A DNA stretch of 33,502 nucleotides from Bacteroidales bacterium (GTDB taxonomy: Bacteria > Bacteroidota > Bacteroidia > Bacteroidales > VadinHA17). Of the stretch, positions 4,907 to 7,417 are shown in pieces. The notes beneath the pieces are model-generated. The model was not told where the DNA came from. It was given only the letters and a program-made list of their open reading frames with translations, and searched no databases. Both the position numbers and the translations under genes were made by a program. The stretch covers positions 1 through 33,502 of the forward strand of contig JAGGXD010000232.1 in assembly GCA_021163295.1 (NCBI GenBank), read 5' to 3'. Position 1 is the stretch's first letter. Each line of letters opens with the position of its first letter.

Positions 4907-5376
4907 TTAAAAATTTTGTCTTCCTTGATTTTCACGCCTGTTCCTAAGTTGGCGGAGAAGAAGAATTTTATATTGTTCTTCTGCAATATATATCTTCATT
5001 ACCTTACCGATGGGAAGAACCTCTTTGAATTTCTCATGGTATGCTAATAACAGGTCAGATTCTTCTTTCATAAGACGAATGTACTTTCCTGTCATCTCTT
5101 CAATTTCCTTCTCAGATAAATTATTGAAATTCTGCATGTAATACCGTGTTAAATTTCTTCTGTCCTGGATGATTTTGTTTTTACGTACCTGGTAATATTA
5201 TATATAGGCCAGAATTCCTGAGCTTCCCTGGAGGTCAATTGTAGTTTCTTGGTAAAAAAGCCCACCTTTTGTGCCTGGAGTTCCTGAACTTTATCATAAT
5301 TCTGTGAAGAAACTGTCCGTGGTCCCAGGAAAAATAAAATAAGGCAATAAAATAGCAAATTCTTTGAAGTTTTCAT
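4907..5376 (-). pseudogene. frameshifted periplasmic Spy/CpxP-like sensor protein
   Basis: The two ORFs at 5149-5376 and 4907-5137 are one gene broken by a frameshift. The first gives a signal peptide (MKTSKNLLFYCLILFFLGPRTVSSQ) and the helical block 'KKLQLTSREAQEFWPIYN'; the second continues it with 'MQNFNNLSEKEIEEMTGKYIRLMKEE'. In the TATATATAATATT tract (5191-5208, read on the minus strand) the frame shifts by one base. Adding a single base gives 'FWPIYNxYQVRKNKIIQDRRNLTRYYMQNFNNLSEKE', matching the usual 'FWPxYNEY' pattern of these helical ECF-associated envelope proteins. Family membership is inferred from the pattern. The short ORFs should not be annotated as separate proteins. An assembly error at this base is the alternative. 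Confidence 0.75.
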
Positions 5377-5388
5377 CCGTTTAAAATT

Positions 5389-5679
5389 TTATAATTGATT
5401 TGCAATTTCCCGGTTCCTGATATTTGAATTTGAATTCCTGTTAATGAAGTATCTGAATCCGGTATATCCTATCAGGGCAAAGCCAAGAATAGCAGCAGCA
5501 AGTGCCAGGTGTGGTTTTAAATAGTCAATAATACGGGTAACAGGCATGCCGATTGCTTTTTTGTGTGCATGAATGTTAACCTGTATCTTCTCAGGTAGAT
5601 TATCGAAATATTTATCCGGAACCCTGAAAGGATTTTCCTTCTTCAACCCGGAAAATTTATGTTCAGATTGTGTTTTCAT
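5389..5679 (-). CDS. probable C-terminally truncated anti-sigma/membrane partner of the ECF sigma factor
   Basis: A 96-residue protein beginning with the conserved 'ENPFRVPDKYFDNLPEKIQ' block that I know from small Bacteroidetes membrane proteins encoded directly downstream of ECF sigma factors. One transmembrane segment ('LALAAAILGFALIGYTGF') spans about residues 58-75, with the N-terminus expected in the cytoplasm. The protein ends at 'RNREIANQL', soon after the membrane segment; related proteins as I remember them continue with an acidic tail of several tens of residues, so the C-terminus is probably lost. The stop lies 12 bases before the next gene start. The anti-sigma role is inferred from position only. 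Confidence 0.6.
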   Translation of the reverse strand: MKTQSEHKFSGLKKENPFRVPDKYFDNLPEKIQVNIHAHKKAIGMPVTRIIDYLKPHLALAAAILGFALIGYTGFRYFINRNSNSNIRNREIANQL

Positions 5680-5730: not shown

Positions 5731-5973
5731 TTAATCATTAGTTAAAAATTCTTTTATCTTTTTTACAGCATGATGATACGAAGCCTTAAGAGCTCCGACT
5801 GAGGTGTCGAGGATTTCAGCATCAGCATCCTCATGTGAAATGACGATCTTACGAATATGCCAATATAATTTTTCCTGGTACCTTTTAACAATTAAGCCGA
5901 AAGCATAATCAGGATTTTCTCCGGCGTTAAATATTTGTAAAAGATCTTTGTCACTATAGCTGTTTTCTGCCAC
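5731..5973 (-). pseudogene. ECF RNA polymerase sigma factor with internal deletion
   Basis: The frame encodes the start of sigma region 2 ('DKDLLQIFNAGENPDYAFGLIVKRYQEKLYWHIRKIVISHEDAD') and then jumps straight to the last helix of region 4 ('EILDTSVGALKASYHHAVKKIKEFL'). The rest of region 2 (promoter melting and -10 recognition), the linker and most of region 4 are missing, some 80-90 residues compared with a normal ~180-residue sigma of this type. The join is in frame at GATGCTGATGCTGAA, so it is a true deletion rather than a one-base error. The listed ORF start (MQKAFI..., 6120) lies inside the upstream gene; a GTG at 5973 (V-A-E-N-S-Y) is a more likely start. The product cannot be a working sigma factor. 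Confidence 0.8.
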
Positions 5974-6040
5974 CCTGATATCTTTCTGAATAATAAATGC
6001 TTTACGACAAATGTATTCTTGGTTTGCAACCGTTTCCCTA

Positions 6041-7417
6041 TCACAATATCCTGATAGTCCCGGATTTTCCCGGTTCAATTTCAAAAGACTTATCAATAGT
6101 ATAATAAACGCTTTTTGCATTCCTGGGTTTAAAAATTACACGGTAATTACCGGGTAATAATACAAGATTAGTTACCTTGTTCTTAGTATCAATATTATAA
6201 ATCCACTCAAGATTGTTTTTCTTTTCCAGAAACAGGCCGCAATACCCTTCAGCACCAAAATTAAGAGTAATAATACCGGGACGGGGAATTTGAATAGTAG
6301 TGGTTTCGCTCTGAGAAATAACTACATCGTTAATAAGAAGCCGTGGGAGAGTTGGTATTTCTATGTCATACTTTCCTATTAAGTATTTTTCAGAATAATT
6401 TACTTTTTGATTGTTTAAAGTGGTTTTTTGACCGGCTTTCCTTACAAGAAAATCTAAATTTCTGAATTGATTGCCGTTTGGAGGCTTAATAATTAAGTTT
6501 CCCTGTGGAACATCTATAGCAATTATGTTGTGTTTCCCCTGATTTAAACGTATTGAATCAAGTGTTACAGGTGGTATTGAATGAACAACCATTTTGTATC
6601 TTATCATTGGGTCGAGATACAATGTATCCGGATTTCCACGGTGGTTAATTGCATGAATAAAATTATACATGATCCTTCCTGAATTAAGATCATAAAAGGT
6701 CATGTTTAAATTTGTTTCGCTGGGATACCCAAAAGAGTCAAGCAGGTTCACCTGGGCGGTAGTTTTATTAAGTGTTTTTGAAATTATCAAATTCAGAGCA
6801 TCTTTGAAGTTAGACTCCTTTTGTGTATTAATATAGGTGCCAACACAATTCAGGGATTTTTCAAATAGTGGGTCAATTCCTATTCCAATTATAAAAGGCT
6901 CAAGATATATTCCGTTTTTTTGCAGCCGTTTTGAAATTTCACAAGGATCACCATCACATGCTTCAATACCATCAGTAATCAAAATAATTATGTTCCTGCA
7001 ATTATCACATTCCGGAAAATCATTCCCGGCTTGCTCAAGAGAATATGCAATGGGTGTAGTCCCCTTAGGGATAAGATATCTCATGAGATGTTTAATATTC
7101 TTCCCGTTTTTTGGTGCGAAAGGAACCTCAAGCTTTGTATCACTGCAGTCCTGAGGCGGAACCACACTTTGATGTCCATATACTCTTAATGCCATTTGAA
7201 CATTGGGGATTTTCTCAAGACTGTCAATGGTTTGATAAAGGAATTCACGTGCAACATTGATCTTTTTTTCATTTTGCCACACACCGGCCATGCTTTGTGA
7301 ACAATCAAAAATAAACAGGATACGGGTCAAAGGTTCCCTGCTAATTTTAGTTTGTGATTGTAACGGAAGTATTACAAGGGTTGAGAAAACCAGTGCGAAA
7401 AATGGTGTTTTGATCAT
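6041..7417 (-). CDS. exported von Willebrand factor A-domain protein
   Basis: A 458-residue protein with a signal peptide (residues 1-22, ..LVILPLQSQ) and a VWA domain at about residues 32-215. The MIDAS metal site is intact: D38-x-S-x-S in 'FDCSQSM', Thr in 'GTTPIAYSLEQ', and Asp in 'LITDGIEACDGDPC'. Several Cys residues near the MIDAS (C39, 'QDCSD', 'ECDNC', 'EACDGDPCE', 'LNCVG') suggest disulfides outside the cytoplasm. The C-terminal half is beta-rich with PEGA-like repeats ('GKYDIEIPTLP', 'LPGNYRVIFKP'). The fold normally mediates metal-dependent protein binding. It lies 67 bases upstream of the damaged sigma gene on the same strand. Confidence 0.85.
   Translation of the reverse strand: MIKTPFFALVFSTLVILPLQSQTKISREPLTRILFIFDCSQSMAGVWQNEKKINVAREFLYQTIDSLEKIPNVQMALRVYGHQSVVPPQDCSDTKLEVPFAPKNGKNIKHLMRYLIPKGTTPIAYSLEQAGNDFPECDNCRNIIILITDGIEACDGDPCEISKRLQKNGIYLEPFIIGIGIDPLFEKSLNCVGTYINTQKESNFKDALNLIISKTLNKTTAQVNLLDSFGYPSETNLNMTFYDLNSGRIMYNFIHAINHRGNPDTLYLDPMIRYKMVVHSIPPVTLDSIRLNQGKHNIIAIDVPQGNLIIKPPNGNQFRNLDFLVRKAGQKTTLNNQKVNYSEKYLIGKYDIEIPTLPRLLINDVVISQSETTTIQIPRPGIITLNFGAEGYCGLFLEKKNNLEWIYNIDTKNKVTNLVLLPGNYRVIFKPRNAKSVYYTIDKSFEIEPGKSGTIRIL

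Follow-up and report, generated by a model that had tools for sequence, protein, structure and literature searches.

Split and single-domain sigma factors, such as SigO/RsoA of Bacillus subtilis, retain one complete domain per subunit. Bacterial pseudogenes that arise through deletion at short repeats show breakpoints within genes at imperfect repeats and can carry several lesions in one operon, with the orthologues of sister species intact. Full-length ECF sigma factors (TIGR02937; e.g., Escherichia coli RpoE, structure 1or7) carry both region 2 (PF04542) and region 4 (PF08281). We compared with these systems a locus in a window of 33,502 nucleotides, the whole stretch of DNA analyzed here, which is one contig (C259) of genome G000 (3.49 Mb, 272 contigs, 96.6% complete). 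An earlier note on this DNA had described an ECF sigma factor gene from which an internal segment is cleanly missing, in frame. Full-length orthologues bear this out and mark the short form as derived. The deletion very probably belongs to the recent pseudogenization of a dispensable three-gene ECF sigma/anti-sigma operon, a case of ordinary gene loss. A literature search returned no report of this locus.

The sigma factor remnant and its orthologues

The remnant is an open frame of 80 codons on the minus strand, with a GTG start at 5973 and a stop codon ending at 5731; the plus strand of 5731–5973 contains several stops. Its N-terminal part is 71–79% identical to five congeners and synteny is kept, which marks descent from an ECF sigma gene. 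The alignment with full-length relatives that the earlier note had called for places a complete ECF sigma gene at the same locus in five of the six further congeneric species compared, where an open frame of 193 codons lies between a von Willebrand factor A-domain (VWA) gene and a probable anti-sigma gene. These five genes are ∼90–92% identical to one another and encode canonical ECF sigma factors, with PF04542, PF08281, and TIGR02937 all above cut-off.

Against the five congeners, exactly 312 bp (104 codons, D51–I154) are missing in frame, more than the 80–90 residues first estimated, and the best breakpoints are identical in every comparison. The lost segment runs from region 2.2 through region 2.4 and the linker into region 4, taking region 4.1 and the first half of the helix-turn-helix in region 4.2; very little of region 2 beyond 2.1 survives. 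The C-terminal helix of that helix-turn-helix, the recognition helix (SVGALKASYHHAVKKIKEF), is retained, as is the C terminus. The description of the product as devoid of promoter-recognition surfaces, therefore, holds for most of region 2 and the remainder of region 4 but not for this helix. Neither PF04542 nor PF08281 matches the remnant, as compared with E values of 7.7e-17 and 5.5e-16, respectively, for the orthologue; it reached no Pfam family and passed no NCBIfam cut-off. Upstream of the start, at 5974–6120 on the minus strand, the same frame is open into the 3′ end of the VWA gene; this is due to an extra T ahead of the sigma start relative to the congeners and is probably meaningless.

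We searched for the missing segment in the rest of G000 and obtained no significant match, neither an intact copy nor a trace on other contigs; the next best sigma factors in this genome are paralogues at ∼30–33% identity. Across 117 genomes of the family, ∼80 orthologues are full length. Homologues that are naturally short, which the earlier note had named as evidence that would overturn its reading, are absent among these ∼80 family orthologues, one independent decay (G005, below) aside. Two apparent short forms, in G065 and G057, were rejected on account of runs of N in the stretches concerned.

Features of the sigma factor operon and its upstream neighbor in the window
Feature	Position	Strand	Details
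Secreted VWA-domain protein, 458 aa, intact	6041..7417	-	Upstream of the sigma gene; same order in congeners
ECF sigma factor gene remnant	5731..5973	-	Residues 1–50 and 155–183 of the 183-aa orthologue left
Sigma deletion junction, GATGCTGATGCT	5818..5829	-	Breakpoint 5822/5821 to 5820/5819, equivalent placements; 312 bp lost
Probable membrane anti-sigma gene, 96 aa (orthologue ∼147 aa)	5389..5679	-	Assigned by position and architecture
Secreted Spy/CpxP-like third gene, split	4907..5376	-	ORFs 5149–5376 and 4907–5137

The deletion junction

In the intact relatives, the lost segment is flanked by GATGCTAATG on the left and GATGAAATTG on the right, which are alike at 7 of 10 bases in register. 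The junction product GATGCTGATGCTGAAATC is best explained as the left flank, with one A-to-G change, joined to the right flank (CTGARAT). The first GATGCT copy and the GATG that follows it correspond to the left flank with this one substitution, and the final CT corresponds to the right flank. The GATGCT GATGCT repeat to which attention had been drawn at the join is present at 5829–5818, but the origins of the flanks, as seen in the relatives, make the duplication a product of the join rather than its cause or substrate. The recombination or slippage proposed on the basis of that repeat nevertheless fits the junction: the deletion probably arose by replication slippage or illegitimate recombination between the short imperfect direct repeats GATGCTAATG and GATGAAATTG.

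Lesions in the partner genes and in a congener

Two lesions that the earlier note did not mention lie downstream of the remnant. The probable anti-sigma gene carries a 156-bp in-frame deletion near its 3′ end (junction ∼5402/5401), as seen in a junction comparison with congener G003 and in the gene alignment; it takes ∼50 residues after the transmembrane helix, and there is AATTG microhomology at the site. The Spy/CpxP-like gene is frameshifted by a 1-base deletion near 5196/5197 and is a single intact frame in G001–G004 and in G005. Neither protein has a Pfam or NCBIfam match above cut-off, and both are putatively labeled on the basis of their order in the operon, one central hydrophobic stretch, and a start resembling a signal peptide. 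The VWA gene (458 codons), hutH (507), and ychF (365) align codon for codon with no indels. The two larger deletions, of 312 and 156 bp, and the frameshift of 1 bp fall in three consecutive genes, and the flanking genes are clean. In G003 (L064 7491–8969), a second hutH-like gene, 35% identical, adjoins hutH.

Congener G005 (L109/L022) has lost the VWA gene, and its sigma gene is missing the first 58 codons. Its anti-sigma gene also has a tail deletion, which is out of frame, lies between GCAAATCA repeats, and has breakpoints different from those in the window; its third gene is undamaged. In a tree of hutH and ychF, G005 groups with G004, G001, and G002, and the window is placed beside G003, with 95–100% bootstrap for the splits that separate the window from G005. 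Given this separation, the sigma/anti-sigma losses in the two lineages are most simply explained as independent.

Operon decay and its alternatives

The loss of the sigma factor's middle, the damage to both partner genes, and the different breaks in a cousin point to ordinary decay and not to a new short protein. The relatives have intact orthologues, and the lesions in the window are derived and disabling, as in a pseudogene. In the course of events that we infer, a three-gene ECF operon (sigma, membrane anti-sigma, and secreted Spy/CpxP-like protein) is disappearing from the window's lineage: the 312-bp event would have cost the sigma factor most of region 2 together with the linker, region 4.1, and one half of region 4.2; an event of 156 bp at the AATTG microhomology would have cut away the anti-sigma factor's extracytoplasmic tail; and a single-base deletion would have split the third gene. 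Two observations count against decay. Of the three lesions, two preserve the frame, for which the chance is ∼1/9, and dN/dS of the remaining sigma codons, at 0.09–0.13 against the congeners, is not raised, which would fit either a very recent loss or continuing constraint on the remnant.

An assembly or strain-mixture artifact, in which the contig skips sequence that the organism has, is an unlikely explanation. G000 is fragmented into its 272 contigs and is most likely a metagenome bin, like the named congeners (Bacteroidota bins), which would make such an error conceivable. However, three lesions of different kinds lie within one operon while every neighboring gene checked is clean, the missing sequence is on no other contig, and the same genes are independently damaged in the related genome G005. 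We consider it very improbable that the 80-aa product is instead a selected mini-protein with affinity for the anti-sigma factor or for RNA polymerase, as a decoy working with a shortened, signal-blind anti-sigma factor. That both larger deletions are in frame, that the transmembrane and cytoplasmic parts of the anti-sigma factor are kept, and that dN/dS of the remnants is low would all suit such a protein, but the remnant has lost region 2.2, which binds core, a frameshift interrupts the third gene, and the short form occurs in no other genome searched.

The anti-sigma contacts also argue against a mini-protein. In RpoE numbering, the class I anti-sigma contacts tabulated in PMC7406223 include positions 31, 35, 47, 51, 54, 58, 131, 135, and 149–151. 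On alignment with 1or7, positions 51, 54, 58, 131, 135, and 149–151 fall in the lost segment, and of those given here only 31, 35, and 47 are kept, although this map describes class I anti-sigma factors, and the partner here, with no family match, may not be class I. With most of these listed contacts lost, the C-terminal part of the partner missing, and a frameshift in the third gene, the earlier suggestion that the remnant could still bind its anti-sigma partner is not supported. A decoy role is unlikely, since the remnant falls below the sigma domain cut-offs and keeps few of the known anti-sigma contacts. Lowest of all we would place the proposal that the shortened sigma factor and the tail-less anti-sigma factor are both kept by selection and form a pared-down regulatory pair, in which, for example, a decoy peptide acts on a constitutive membrane anti-sigma factor. 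Judged from its sequence, the remnant could not act as a sigma factor and is most likely without function. Decay of the whole operon is a better frame for the locus than one unusual protein.

The locus offers a clear example of the decay of a sigma/anti-sigma module, caught early enough for its breakpoints to be legible and seen twice independently within one genus, which suggests that this ECF regulon is dispensable in these lineages; the remnant does not indicate a new regulator. Compared with full-length ECF sigma factors, the remnant is orthologous to the 183-aa form of the same genus, with both ends conserved, but it lacks 104 internal residues comprising regions 2.2–2.4, 4.1, and half of 4.2. 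Like SigO/RsoA, it is a sigma-like protein without some of the canonical regions; unlike them, it keeps neither domain whole. The operon resembles bacterial deletion pseudogenes in its deletions at short imperfect repeats, its several lesions, and its intact sister-species orthologues and differs from them only in that two of its deletions are in frame.
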